Below are positions 28,817 to 63,999 of a stretch of 64,000 bases of DNA, one piece after another. This stretch comes from Anaerovibrio slackiae. GTDB taxonomy: Bacteria; Bacillota; Negativicutes; Selenomonadales; Selenomonadaceae. The position numbers were made by a program, and so were the translations under genes. The notes beneath the pieces are model-generated. The model worked only from the letters and a program-made list of their open reading frames with translations. It had not been told where the DNA came from and searched no databases. The DNA lies in NCBI RefSeq assembly GCF_009695585.1, contig NZ_VUNR01000002.1, forward strand, positions 1-64,000, read 5' to 3'. Every line of letters begins with the position of its first letter. Position 1 is the stretch's first letter.

Positions 28817-28896
28817 AACTGCCGCAAAATAGTGTACAAAAACCAATACGCAGCAGTAACTGCATAATCGGTCATAGACAACTATTTGCGGCAGTT
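28817..28896 (-). terminator. Long-arm inverted repeat with T-run between trxA and the FAD oxidoreductase
   Basis: AACTGCCGCAAAATAGT (28817-28833) and ACTATTTGCGGCAGTT (28881-28896) pair over 16 bp with a single-base bulge. On the minus strand the second arm is followed by TTTTTG, as in a terminator. The loop of about 47 nt is long and contains its own GCAGTAACTGC palindrome. Confidence 0.6.
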
Positions 28897-28992
28897 GGTA
28901 GAAACATCTTTCCGTATCAAAGACCTATATAACCTAGAAGATGTTATCAAAAAAATACCCTCTTGTCAAGCATTCATCTTGTTAAGTATGCA

Positions 28993-53590: not shown

Positions 53591-53745
53591 TCAATCCCTG
53601 CCAAACAGATCCCGGGTATATACCTTTTTAGCCACATCAGCCAGCTGGCTGTCATATCTGTTAGCAATAATCACCTGCGCCATGGACTTGAACTCAGCCA
53701 GGTTATTCACCACCCGGCTGCCAAAGAAATCCTTGAGTGCAGCCT
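53591..53745 (-). pseudogene. UDP-glucose 6-dehydrogenase, C-terminal fragment only
   Basis: The minus-strand frame reads [20 protein letters not shown] and then ends [24 protein letters not shown]. This is the C-terminal end of UDP-glucose/GDP-mannose dehydrogenases (Ugd type), where [10 protein letters not shown] is characteristic. Only about 50 residues remain of an expected 390-450. Upstream of codon ALKD the similarity stops and the sequence becomes the repeated hairpin at 53743-53797. No start codon or ribosome binding site serves the fragment, so it is a remnant. The 5' part was lost by deletion or by insertion followed by loss. Confidence 0.85.
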
Positions 53746-53797
53746 CGCTTCTTAGTGAGTGCGAGCGCAAGCGAAGCAGGAACTTAGAAGCGCGAGG
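53743..53797 (+). repeat. Hairpin repeat, copy A
   Basis: CCTCGCTTCTTAG opens and CTTAGAAGCGCGAGG closes a hairpin of about 55 nt. The outer stem is CCTCG/CGAGG, with a CG bulge, then CTT/AAG, then CTTAG opposite CTTAG (one T-T mismatch), and an inner GCGAGCGCAAGCGAAGC region. A second copy with matching layout lies at 63463-63519 on the other strand. Confidence 0.7.
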
Positions 53798-53800
53798 CAC

Positions 53801-53958
53801 GGGATAACAGAACCCTATTGACATGAATTAGTTTCGAGGATAAATCCTTGTATGCTAGGCGGAGGAGGAAGGCATGGTGGTTCCATGCCGACCGACAACA
53901 ACAACGCAGACAAGGATTTAGACCGAAAATAATCATGGATATAGGGTTCTGTTATCCC
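53801..53958. other. 158-nt nested inverted-repeat element (structured RNA or MITE-like)
   Basis: Outer arms GGGATAACAGAACCCTAT and ATAGGGTTCTGTTATCCC are a perfect 18-bp pair. Inside them ATGAATTAGTTTCG pairs with CGAAAATAATCAT, then TAAATCCTTGT (53841) with ACAAGGATTTA (53910), and at the tip GGCATGG-TGGTT-CCATGCC. Together they give a nearly continuous hairpin of about 50 pairs. No protein frame explains it. No target-site duplication is visible at the ends. A further IR, TTTTCGTG/CACGAAAA (53973-54015), follows before the YvrJ gene. Confidence 0.75.
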
Positions 53959-54040
53959 CCGAGCGAGAGCGTGTTTTCGTGGTTGCTGACATACCTGCGC
54001 TATAGGGCACGAAAATAAAAAGAAAGGAGCTATCACATTC

Positions 54041-60014: not shown

Positions 60015-61193
60015 TCACTCCTTGCCCATGAACAGCTCCTGCAAGCTGTGCTCATGCAGCCTGCTGCCGATTACGCAGAAACGCCCGGTGTAGTCAGCAG
60101 CACCAGTCTCCACGCTGCTTTCCCCGGGAACGTAGTTAAAATGCAACCATTCACCCTCATTGACGGACTTGACGATGCCCTTGGCACGAAGAACTACGCC
60201 GTATTCATCTGCATTGACCAGCTCCGCCAGGATTTCCTTCAGTTCATCGGCAGAATATTTTTTGGTAGTTTCCTGTCCCCAGCTGCCAAATACATCATCA
60301 GCATGATGATGATGGTGGTCATGGTCATGATGATGCTCGTGGTCATGGCAGCTGCACTCAGGGTCATGGCACTCCCCCTCATGGTGATGATGGTCATGGT
60401 CATGTTCATGTTCATGTTCATGCTCATGTTCGTGGTCATGATGGTGCTCGTGGTCGTGACAGCTGCACTCAGGGTCATGGCACTCCCCCTCATGGTGATG
60501 GTGATGATGCTCATGGTCATGGTGGCCGTGTTCATGGTCGTGATGTTCATGGTCGTGCTCGTGCTCATGCTGCTCCTGCTCTACCTCAGATACGGAAAGC
60601 AGAGGACTGTTTGCCAACGCGGCCAAAATCTGGCTACCGCTCAGTTCGTCCCAAGGGGTAGTAACAACCGGCGCCTCAGGGTTGTGCTGACGGATAATCT
60701 CCATAGTCTCAGCCAGCTTCTTTTCCGTCACATCCTGGCTGCGGCTCAGCACAACGCAGTCAGCATGGGCAATCTGATCCACGAAGAACTCCCCATAATT
60801 CCTGGCGTACATCTTGCACTTCTTGGCGTGAACTACGGCAATGCTGCCGTCCAGGACTACATCATCACTCAGCACGGTGGCAACGGCCTTCTTTACATCA
60901 GACAGCTTGCCCACCCCTGACGGCTCGATGATGATGCGCTCCGGGTGATAGGTATCCATTACCTGCTTCAGGGACTGCTCAAAATCACCTACCAGAGAGC
61001 AGCAGATACAGCCGGAATTGAGCTCCTTTATCTCCACACCGGCTTCCTTCATAAAGCCGCCGTCAATGGCAATCTCGCCAAATTCATTTTCAATCAGGGC
61101 AATCTTGTCTGTAAAGCCGTCACTAATCAGCTTCTGGATGAGCGTAGTCTTGCCTGCGCCCAAAAAACCTGAAAATATGTTAATCTTAGTCAT
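60015..61193 (-). CDS. CobW/COG0523-family GTPase with His-rich metal-binding linker
   Basis: A 392-residue G3E GTPase, probably a zinc or other transition-metal chaperone. Walker A is IFSGFLGAGKTTLIQKL, the metal motif is LNSGCICCSLVGDF (GCxCC), and G3 reads RIIIEPSGVGK. A linker of about 95 residues (roughly 200-298) is nearly all His, Glu and Asp with CHDPECSCHDHEHHH present twice. The C-terminal CobW_C domain has GIVKSVNEGEWLHFNYVPG. The ATG at 61193 follows GGAGG. Zinc-limited expression is usual for such proteins, but no clear Zur box was seen. Confidence 0.92.
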   Translation of the reverse strand: MTKINIFSGFLGAGKTTLIQKLISDGFTDKIALIENEFGEIAIDGGFMKEAGVEIKELNSGCICCSLVGDFEQSLKQVMDTYHPERIIIEPSGVGKLSDVKKAVATVLSDDVVLDGSIAVVHAKKCKMYARNYGEFFVDQIAHADCVVLSRSQDVTEKKLAETMEIIRQHNPEAPVVTTPWDELSGSQILAALANSPLLSVSEVEQEQHEHEHDHEHHDHEHGHHDHEHHHHHHEGECHDPECSCHDHEHHHDHEHEHEHEHEHDHDHHHHEGECHDPECSCHDHEHHHDHDHHHHHADDVFGSWGQETTKKYSADELKEILAELVNADEYGVVLRAKGIVKSVNEGEWLHFNYVPGESSVETGAADYTGRFCVIGSRLHEHSLQELFMGKE

Positions 61194-61480: not shown

Positions 61481-63367
61481 TTACTCCTGCAGGTAGAACT
61501 CCACATCATCGATGGAGCCCCAGTTGCCTGCATTGGCTACCATATCAATGCCGATGGTTGCCTTGCCGTCCTTGATTTCTACATCGCGGATTACCCACTG
61601 ATGCCAATCGTTCCAGCCGGTATCAGCAATAACTGCGGACTGCTCGCCCTTGGAGGTCTGTACCATCAGGGTGTAGTAATGCTGGCCGCCGCCGCCCTGA
61701 GTCCAGCAGGATACGGTGTACTTGCCGTCCTTCAGGCCGGTAAAGCTCTGGGTTGCCTTGAACTTGAAGCCCTTGTCAGCCCAATAGTGCATTGCGCTCT
61801 TGCCGCGGGCATCACCAGCGGAGGATACGGTGTTTACGGCATCCTTGTCGCCGGTAATGGTCCAGCCGTTCAAATCGCCGTTCTCAAAGGTGCCGTTCTT
61901 CACCAGATTTACCTTCTTGATAACATTGATGGAGGCTACGGCAGTCTTGCCAGCTACGCCATTGACAGTGCCCTTTACGGTGTACTTGCCAGCTGCATCA
62001 AAGACAGGCTCGGCATTCTCCCATACTACAGGCATGCTCTTGACAACGTCGTTCTCATAGACAACGCTGACCTTCTTAGGCATTTCCACAGGCTGTCCTA
62101 CGGAGCCGGTTACCAATGCTGCCTCGATTTCCTTTACCTTGTACTCAACTACCGGCTTGGACTGGTCGCTGACCATCTTAAATACATCCAGGGATTCCAG
62201 TGCATTGCCCTGGAAGTCGAACATGGCCAGGTTTTCCCACTCGTTGCCTTCACCGGCCTTCCAGCCTGCGCCCTCTACAGGAATCCAGTCAGGCTCCCAG
62301 TAGAAAATGCCCTTGCCCTTGCCGTTCTTGACATTGGAAACGTGCTCCATTACATCGTGGAGGCCGCTTGCCTGTCCCTGTACGGTGGACTTGTAGCCTG
62401 CGATAGCTTCCTCGGTAGGGCCTGCGCAGTTCTTCTGGGCATCGCCCTGCTCGTTGGTGAAGGCATAGGCAGTCTCTACTACGATGACATCCTTGCCATA
62501 GCGGTCAACCATGTCATTCATGTTGTAGGAAAGCTCCTCCATGCTGCCATGCCAGAATGGATAGTAGGAGAAACCGATTACATCAAAGTCGTTGACGCCG
62601 TTGTTGACAATCAGCTCATCGAAGAAGCTGCGGTACAGGGCGTTGTTGTTGCCGTTGGCCAGGTGAACCATGCGTGTTACCTGATTGTTCGGGTCGTTGT
62701 CCTTTACTGCTTTCAGGCCCTGGGCGATGGCGTCTGCCAATGCCTTGTAGCCTTCAGGGGTGTCGGTCTTGCATACAGGCCACAGCATGCCGTTGTTCAG
62801 CTCGTTGCCGATCTGTACCATGTCAGGGGTTACACCTGCAGCTTTGAAGTCTTTCATGACTTTTGCGGTGTAGTTGTATACGTCCTTGGCCAGCTGCTTG
62901 GCGTTGTGGTTTTCCCAGGCCTTTGGAGGATACTGCTTGCCCGGGTCTGCCCACCAGTCGCTGTAGTGGAAGTCAACGAGGACCTTCATGCCGAGAGCCT
63001 TGGCGCGTTTGGCTACCTCTAGTGCTTTCTTTTCATCGGTTACGCCGCCGCCGTTACCATTTGGGCCGTAGGAATATGGATCGTTCCAAATGCGGACACG
63101 TACCCAGTTGATGCCTTTTTCCTGCAAGATGGTGAGGCAGTCCTTCTCTACGCCGTTGTCGTAGAATTTGCCGCCCAGGCGTTCCAGCTCTGGAATCATG
63201 GATACGTCTGCGCCCTTGATGAAGTCGTCGCTGATGCCTGCGATTGGATTTACCTTTACTGCAGCTTCAGCACTACTGGCGCCAAAGGAAGTGCCAAGCA
63301 TGGCGGAACCTGCCATGAGGGCTGCCATTACATAGGCAGTGAGTTTTTTGCTTGTGAATTTTTTCAT
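61481..63367 (-). CDS. Secreted endo-beta-1,4-galactanase (GH53) with Ig-like and CBM-type domains
   Basis: A 628-residue exported enzyme. The signal peptide spans about residues 1-36 (KLTAYVMAALMAGSAMLGTS...AEA). The GH53 domain (about 45-390) shows INWVRVRIWNDPYS, KVLVDFHYSDWWADPGKQ, DMVQIGNELNNGMLWP (acid/base Glu), VIGFSYYPFWHG and DVIVVETAYAFT (nucleophile Glu). A bacterial Ig-like domain (about 400-465) and a C-terminal beta-sandwich resembling CBM61-type galactan-binding modules (NLVKNGTFENGDLNGW to the end) follow. It cuts pectic type I galactan outside the cell. The ATG follows AGGGGTAA. A roughly 180-nt hairpin lies directly upstream. It is monocistronic. Confidence 0.93.
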   Translation of the reverse strand: MKKFTSKKLTAYVMAALMAGSAMLGTSFGASSAEAAVKVNPIAGISDDFIKGADVSMIPELERLGGKFYDNGVEKDCLTILQEKGINWVRVRIWNDPYSYGPNGNGGGVTDEKKALEVAKRAKALGMKVLVDFHYSDWWADPGKQYPPKAWENHNAKQLAKDVYNYTAKVMKDFKAAGVTPDMVQIGNELNNGMLWPVCKTDTPEGYKALADAIAQGLKAVKDNDPNNQVTRMVHLANGNNNALYRSFFDELIVNNGVNDFDVIGFSYYPFWHGSMEELSYNMNDMVDRYGKDVIVVETAYAFTNEQGDAQKNCAGPTEEAIAGYKSTVQGQASGLHDVMEHVSNVKNGKGKGIFYWEPDWIPVEGAGWKAGEGNEWENLAMFDFQGNALESLDVFKMVSDQSKPVVEYKVKEIEAALVTGSVGQPVEMPKKVSVVYENDVVKSMPVVWENAEPVFDAAGKYTVKGTVNGVAGKTAVASINVIKKVNLVKNGTFENGDLNGWTITGDKDAVNTVSSAGDARGKSAMHYWADKGFKFKATQSFTGLKDGKYTVSCWTQGGGGQHYYTLMVQTSKGEQSAVIADTGWNDWHQWVIRDVEIKDGKATIGIDMVANAGNWGSIDDVEFYLQE

Positions 63368-63396
63368 GTGAAATTACCCCTTCTTCATTTTTTGCG

Positions 63397-63576
63397 TTGT
63401 TCACATTTTTATGCCTGTGCCGTGGCAATGCCAATGCAGGCACGCTCGCGCTACTATCCACGCCTAGCGGTACTAAGCTCTCGCTGCGCCTGCGGCTTGC
63501 GACTCGCTAAGTACCGAGGCGCGTCTCAGTGCCTGCGAATGGCACATGCCACGGCACAGGCTCCTGATGTGAACAA
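63397..63576. other. ~180-nt extended hairpin upstream of the galactanase gene
   Basis: From outside in, TTGTTCACAT (63397) pairs with ATGTGAACAA (63567), GCCTGTGCCGTGGCA (63413) with TGCCACGGCACAGGC (63547), TGCCA with TGGCA, GCAGGCAC with GTGCCTGC, and then the hairpin repeat copy B. The element fills the galactanase leader region from 30 nt before the start codon. The rest of the 450-nt gap up to 63819 is AT-rich and includes the palindrome at 63701-63735. No gene is supported there. Confidence 0.75.
63463..63519 (-). repeat. Hairpin repeat, copy B (tip of the large hairpin)
   Basis: On the minus strand it begins CCTCGGTACTTAGCGAGT and ends CTTAGTACCGCTAGG. The layout equals copy A at 53743-53797: CCTCG, a 3-nt stem part (GTA/TAC here, CTT/AAG in A), CTTAG on both sides, a CG bulge and a GCGAG/CGCAAGC interior. 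Confidence 0.7.
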
Positions 63577-63700
63577 TGACGAAATCCGATATACATATAC
63601 TTTACAAATAACTACTTGTTATCGGTATTTCTTATGTTTTTAACTCTAAGCACTTAAACTTTATTTCATAAAAAGCAATTTTTTTGTTTTTCTATATACT

Positions 63701-63735
63701 TAGTGCCTGATGAATACTATATCCATCAGGCACTA
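63701..63735 (-). terminator. Inverted repeat downstream of the outer-membrane protein gene
   Basis: TAGTGCCTGATG (63701-63712) and CATCAGGCACTA (63724-63735) pair perfectly over 12 bp. It is about 85 nt after the stop codon of the partial outer-membrane gene and probably ends its transcript, although the T-run is poor. Confidence 0.55.
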
Positions 63736-63819
63736 GTATTTACGGCTTAATGCCTGTCATGCATATCAATGCCGTTATATTTTCTACTTTCTCAAATTCC
63801 AAGAAAATAATAAGTATTA

Positions 63820-63999
63820 TCAGAAGCTATAGCTCAAAGCAGCGTAACCTACGTTCTGATAGTTATCGAAAGCAGCAGCAGCCTTATCATATGGCTTCAG
63901 CATGTAGTAAGTGAGCTCAAGGTTCGTGTTGCGAGCAATCTGATAGCCAACACCGATACCCCAGCCACGAGCACCATCGCCCCAGCTAGTTGCAGTTGC
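63820..63999 (-). CDS. Outer-membrane beta-barrel protein, C-terminal 59 residues (partial)
   Basis: The frame enters from the right edge and ends at a TGA at 63820. Alternating residues in GWGIGVGYQIARNTNLELTY and NVGYAALSYSF fit amphipathic beta-strands, and the last residue is Phe, the usual assembly signal for outer-membrane barrels. In Negativicutes such barrels commonly carry an N-terminal S-layer homology domain that ties the outer membrane to peptidoglycan; that part is outside the window. It supports a diderm cell envelope. Confidence 0.8.
   Translation of the reverse strand, partial: ATATSWGDGARGWGIGVGYQIARNTNLELTYYMLKPYDKAAAAFDNYQNVGYAALSYSF

Follow-up and report, generated by a model that had tools for sequence, protein, structure and literature searches.

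Integron attC sites are imperfect palindromes that belong to gene cassettes and act as folded single-stranded DNA; their ends, with the R and L boxes, are kept while their centre varies. REPs and BIMEs are multicopy extragenic palindromes tagged with GTAG or CGTC (PMC3733652, PMC8266576), and the CGTC type is described as being without a dedicated transposase; for E. coli REPs, a conserved stem mismatch is described (PMC8266576). Mobile insertion cassettes and MITEs (PMC3913671, PMC4133298) are TIR-bounded units that carry passenger genes and have no transposase of their own.

The structure analyzed here is an imperfect palindrome of 180 nt at positions 63397-63576 of our window, the first 64,000 nt of Anaerovibrio slackiae contig NZ_VUNR01000002.1, and lies upstream of a galactanase gene. 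It represents a family of long imperfect palindromes ('long-hairpin repeats') specific to this lineage, of which it is a solo copy; a literature search limited to one open-access library yielded no description of such a family. Like attC, the hairpin is an imperfect palindrome tied to gene cassettes that might be recognized in single-stranded, folded form, but an alignment of 32 copies suggests the opposite pattern of conservation, with box and tip kept and the outer arms varying. Mobile insertion cassettes and MITEs have their counterpart in 25 related elements which are bounded by TIRs and have no visible transposase of their own, and such elements can carry passenger genes; the window copy has no TIR. 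The ends of these elements differ from the described ones in adding large subterminal hairpins, and other congeners have members of the hairpin family that lack these TIRs.

With REPs and BIMEs the family shares its multicopy, extragenic and palindromic nature and, as in E. coli REPs (PMC8266576, as far as the portion available goes), a conserved stem mismatch. Both the window copy and another copy, L030, also have CGTCA beside their outer foot (seen by eye). These likenesses could point to an element of REP/BIME type moved by a Y1 (RAYT) transposase. However, the structure is 180 nt long, with a core of ~127 nt, instead of 20-40 bp; its stems are exchanged between copies; it has a 10-nt unpaired box inside an arm; hairpins of the family sit at both ends of TIR cassettes; and CGTCA was seen at only a few copies and not as a family-wide tag in the flanks inspected. 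Further, none of the five loci with PF01797 matches in the genome of the window (G000, the one genome searched for this) contains a copy of the repeat; the Y1 genes are few and lie away from the copies, which weakens a RAYT/REP origin. We regard it as highly improbable.

The hairpin and its place before the galactanase gene

The hairpin is confirmed as a real structure. An initial annotation of the window had described four successive paired blocks of 10, 15, 5 and 8 bp leading to a tip, and all of them are present (Table 1). Folding of the mRNA strand as RNA, which had been suggested as a check, gave -107.5 kcal/mol against a shuffle mean of -66.0 (z -9.9), with none of 200 shuffles as good; folding as DNA gave z -9.7, again with 0 of 200 shuffles equally good. 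The observation that the outer arms extend beyond the repeated core also stands, as most other copies match the core alone (~28-154 of 180 nt) and have different outer arms. The window copy shares its outer box, GTTCAC/GTGAAC, with L030, and the arms are followed by CGCAAAA or TGACGAAAT.

Table 1. Positions of the hairpin, its parts and other features in the window.
Feature	Position	Strand	Remarks
5' outer arm, 10 bp, TTGTTCACAT	63397-63406	+	100% complementary to 63567-63576
15-bp arm, 5' side	63413-63427	+	100% complementary to 63547-63561
Repeat-family core, box2 arms to tip	63424-63550	+	common to most other copies
5-bp block	~63429-63433/63540-63544		seen in sequence and predicted folds
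8-bp arm	63436-63443	+	100% complementary to 63529-63536
box1 CGCTCGCGCT	63443-63452	+	unpaired except for a 2-bp mini-stem
Covarying inner stem (63459-63478/63506-63523) plus tip	63459-63523	+	A63475.A63509 mismatch kept
15-bp arm, 3' side	63547-63561	+	100% complementary to 63413-63427
3' outer arm, ATGTGAACAA	63567-63576	+	100% complementary to 63397-63406
GH53 endo-galactanase gene, 628 aa	61481-63367	-	Pfam PF07745, E 5.8e-129
Shine-Dalgarno-like AAGAAGGGG	63377-63385	-	9 nt from ATG; outside the hairpin
Block conserved upstream of GH53, candidate promoter or regulatory region	63589-63633	-	just outside the hairpin
Hairpin followed by A/T-rich tail, after upstream porin-like gene	63702-63735	-	read from sequence, uncalled by the terminator scan; conserved in G014
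Second family copy, stem type B	53732-53979	-	box1 and tip separated by a nested palindromic insert (by-eye comparison with L026/L134)
Purine riboswitch aptamer	28855-28952	-	Rfam RF00167, 54.9 bits
Direct repeats, ~140 nt	60300-60570		inside His-rich stretch of CobW-like gene; seen as extra alignments

The start codon of the galactanase gene (ATG, 63367-63365) is separated from the hairpin by 29 nt. Among 16 genomes of the genus, three contain the gene: G000, G008 and G014. The hairpin is present at this locus in G000 and G008 and absent in G014, where the same end of the upstream porin-like gene, the terminator-like hairpin, the ribosome-binding site and the start are kept. The G008 hairpin is orthologous to that of the window, with 4 differences in 180 positions, and the DNA beyond it differs. 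The proposed comparison of upstream regions among relatives recovered both presence and absence of the hairpin; it did not recover a crisp boundary, because both relatives differ in the neighboring intergenic DNA.

According to the initial annotation, the whole structure would lie in the mRNA leader if the promoter were upstream of it, and could then control translation or termination. A promoter scan of the region upstream of the galactanase gene returned nothing above chance and no convincing promoter. The conserved block listed in Table 1 has 36 of 45 positions identical in the hairpin-less G014 and is mostly kept in G008 too. Since this block lies outside the hairpin, the latter is probably transcribed in the leader of the galactanase mRNA, and the first part of the proposal remains plausible, if unproven.

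A role in control, the second part, is not supported. The case for a leader regulator, which as part of the galactanase mRNA would act on its stability, translation or early termination, draws on this probable transcription, on the very stable fold and on the conservation of the hairpin between G000 and G008, where the 4 differences in 180 positions compare with 41 in 286 four-fold sites of the gene (p 7e-6). The lower divergence could reflect constraint. Yet the hairpins at four other sites diverge by 0.6 to 5.5%, so that low divergence is a trait of the family and not the sign of a switch specific to the galactanase gene; their similar values speak against a constraint particular to this locus. 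Control of termination is not supported, given the lack of a U-tract after the hairpin and 0 terminator-like sites in 63350-63900, and an intrinsic terminator or attenuator was rejected on these grounds. Control of translation fares no better: in the predicted fold the segment with the Shine-Dalgarno sequence and the start does not pair with the hairpin, the distance from hairpin to ATG is 29 nt in G000 and ~118 nt in G008, and G014 is without the hairpin though its Shine-Dalgarno sequence and start are kept. With cis-regulatory leader RNAs, as collected in Rfam 15, the hairpin shares its position before a start codon, but no Rfam family matches it, so that a riboswitch or known RNA was rejected, and one of the orthologues is without the hairpin. 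A leader regulator therefore seems unlikely to us.

A dispersed family with a fixed box and tip

The other proposal, that the hairpin is an inserted palindromic element and marks the mobility of a repeat family, was borne out by the number and the distribution of its copies. With the whole hairpin as query, we found 41 matches in its own genome of 3.01 Mb, mostly over the core, and presence varies among congeners at the galactanase locus and at three others. The core was found in 13 of the 16 genus genomes; across the family, 29 of 189 genomes gave a match, mostly by the tip only. A search pattern that joined box1 to the tip through a spacer occurred in 15 of these 189 genomes, 13 from the same genus and two from another, and its reversed control gave 0 in every row. 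A separate scan for an exact pattern named as carriers the MAGs Selenomonadaceae SUG1110 (JALFXV01) and a Veillonellaceae bin (CAMFES01). Between congeners, copy number ranges from 0 to >40. The family is thus dispersed and polymorphic.

Presence and absence at orthologous sites were compared for four of eight prepared loci. The L020 copy is missing in G008, G011, G006 and G001, the L012 copy in G008 and the L018 copy in G011, and the hairpin that G008 has at the L002 site belongs to a different stem type. The empty sites are unclean: they differ by tens of extra nucleotides beside the palindrome, with no crisp edge, and no target-site duplication was evident in the flanks inspected.

The window contains a second copy of the family (Table 1). 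It is adjoined by a short coding stretch (53594-53737, minus strand), whose 48-aa product resembles, by eye, the C-terminus of a nucleotide-sugar dehydrogenase, as if the gene had been cut. L030 sits between ribBA-like and ribH-like genes (named by eye). A context shared by the copies was not found with crude ORF heuristics; the underlying simple ORF calling includes spurious ORFs, one of which places the window copy 'inside' an ORF, and the context statistics were not used for counts.

For the anatomy of the family we aligned 32 copies, picked by eye for diversity out of 96 found with a pattern that allowed at most two substitutions in box1 and at most one in each CTAAG arm. Box1 (CGCTC-N-CGCT) is conserved in all 32 save for two bases, one of them the central one; the conservation of box1 and of the CTAAG arms is partly selected for, as the collecting pattern favors them. 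The copies L059 and L060 from the other genus came from a DNA search, and their box1 was visible before the pattern was applied. The tip is bounded by CTAAGC and GCTAAG and keeps an A.A mismatch across copies (63475/63509 in the window). The stems between and outside box and tip are exchanged yet still paired, and the outermost arms vary between copies. RNAalifold predicted 24 pairs for the 32 copies, 15 of which show changes on both sides, and 95.2% of cells are paired, compared to 83.2% in shuffles and 24-41% with slid partners.

These compensatory changes and an unpaired box conserved across two genera could also be those of a conserved RNA or DNA structure that serves the cell, for instance as a protein-binding site or small RNA, and that is inherited vertically and linked to cassettes incidentally. 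Also in favor of this is the site between tyrS and yebC (genes named by eye), where the hairpin persists vertically in five congeners (L207, L039, L034, L223, L040). At this site, G001, G002 and G003 have box1 on the gene strand, where for G003 the placement rests on the tyrS side as its contig stops before yebC; G015 has the tip on that strand, with a box1 that departs from the pattern. In G004, however, the whole hairpin is opposite, with box1 on the opposite strand, which makes a strand-specific RNA role at this site unlikely. Further, not only selection but also arm-to-arm correction may produce covariation in inverted repeats, copy number varies widely between congeners, and the heuristics detected no shared context. 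We consider a cellular role of this kind fairly unlikely.

Cassettes bounded by TIRs and hairpins

Some copies of the family lie close to a TIR pattern, TTTCAGTTTNTCGTNGTG, which occurs 88 times in the genome of the window with up to two mismatches (backward control, 2). Among the fetched loci we identified 25 distinct elements with TIRs at their ends, ranging in size from 336 to 4563 nt. Every one of them contains two inverted occurrences of box1, one close to each end; the distance to the end is ~116-187 nt, mostly 116-128 and sometimes ~182-187 nt. In nine elements, one end has box1 only (L006, L010, L082, L094, L105, L107, L116, L118, L134); at least in some of these, such as L134, a nested insert parts box1 from the tip. 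The hairpin is a subterminal part of both ends of these cassettes, in which no transposase was seen. Specifically, we judged by eye the ORFs of 14 stretches around TIR sites and scanned ten proteins against Pfam, without seeing a transposase shared by the elements; the ORFs listed are, by eye, cargo or host genes, and on this basis we discarded the idea of a TIR element that moves autonomously by its own transposase.

The cargo of the largest element (L133, 4563 nt, G000:C23:159900-164900) includes an MmeI-type restriction-modification protein, carried by this one of the 25. Comparison by eye showed that L132 retains the last codons of the same gene, as a deletion remnant. At sites orthologous to the L133/L178/L132/L134 group, the elements of G008 differ in size (336 vs 4563, ~386 vs 1710 and 2161 vs 955 nt). 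Outside the 25, the same TIR-hairpin ends frame a sorbitol/glucitol PTS operon of ~7.5 kb (L172, G000:C1:64292-71793), which is missing at the matching site in G014. At a further locus (L226, G000:C3:54970-59570), two inverted hsdS genes and a tyrosine recombinase are flanked by inverted repeats of 224 nt (98%), and the hairpin is part of these repeats; the contig has none of the 88 TIR sites.

The TIRs accompany a part of the family. Of the 41 matches, 14 have a TIR site no more than 300 nt away and the other 27 are farther than that from any detected one, and the nearest detected TIR site to the window copy is 90 kb away. With at most one mismatch, the TIR pattern is abundant in only three of the 16 genus genomes and has any match in five. 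Since the core of the hairpin is found in 13 of them, the hairpin exists independently of the TIR, and the distant matches together with the near confinement of the TIR to three genomes show that the TIR system is not the whole story.

Origin and meaning of the galactanase-locus copy

The explanation we consider probable is that the hairpin is a solo copy of a dispersed, DNA-level palindrome, belonging to the hairpin family of a mobile cassette system and passive in the leader of the galactanase gene. Copies would multiply as DNA, serving this system as end signals or riding along as its passengers, and the anatomy of the family suggests that a putative enzyme of the system recognizes box and tip in folded DNA. 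The pairing of the arms may be kept by arm-to-arm correction (template switching), by selection on structure or by both. At the galactanase locus, the copy would have arrived before the split of G000 and G008, between the ribosome-binding site and the block conserved upstream, where, probably as part of the mRNA leader, it would be tolerated rather than serve as a dedicated switch. A transposase or recombinase linked to solo copies was not found at the Y1 loci and TIR elements examined.

A more far-reaching version, which we put forward tentatively as a possibility, is that the hairpins are the DNA end signals of an undescribed cassette system in this genus of Selenomonadaceae. Its putative enzyme would read the unpaired box and the mismatched tip in folded DNA, move or swap entire cargo such as restriction systems and PTS operons between fixed sites, and leave solo hairpins behind as footprints, for example in front of the galactanase gene.

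If our reading is right, large hairpins in leaders should be checked for membership in repeat families before they are read as regulators. In that case, a single odd hairpin would have revealed a family of structured DNA repeats with a constant box and tip and interchangeable stems, found at both ends of gene cassettes without a visible transposase of their own. It would thereby offer a testable signal for the movement of restriction systems and sugar operons in Selenomonadaceae.
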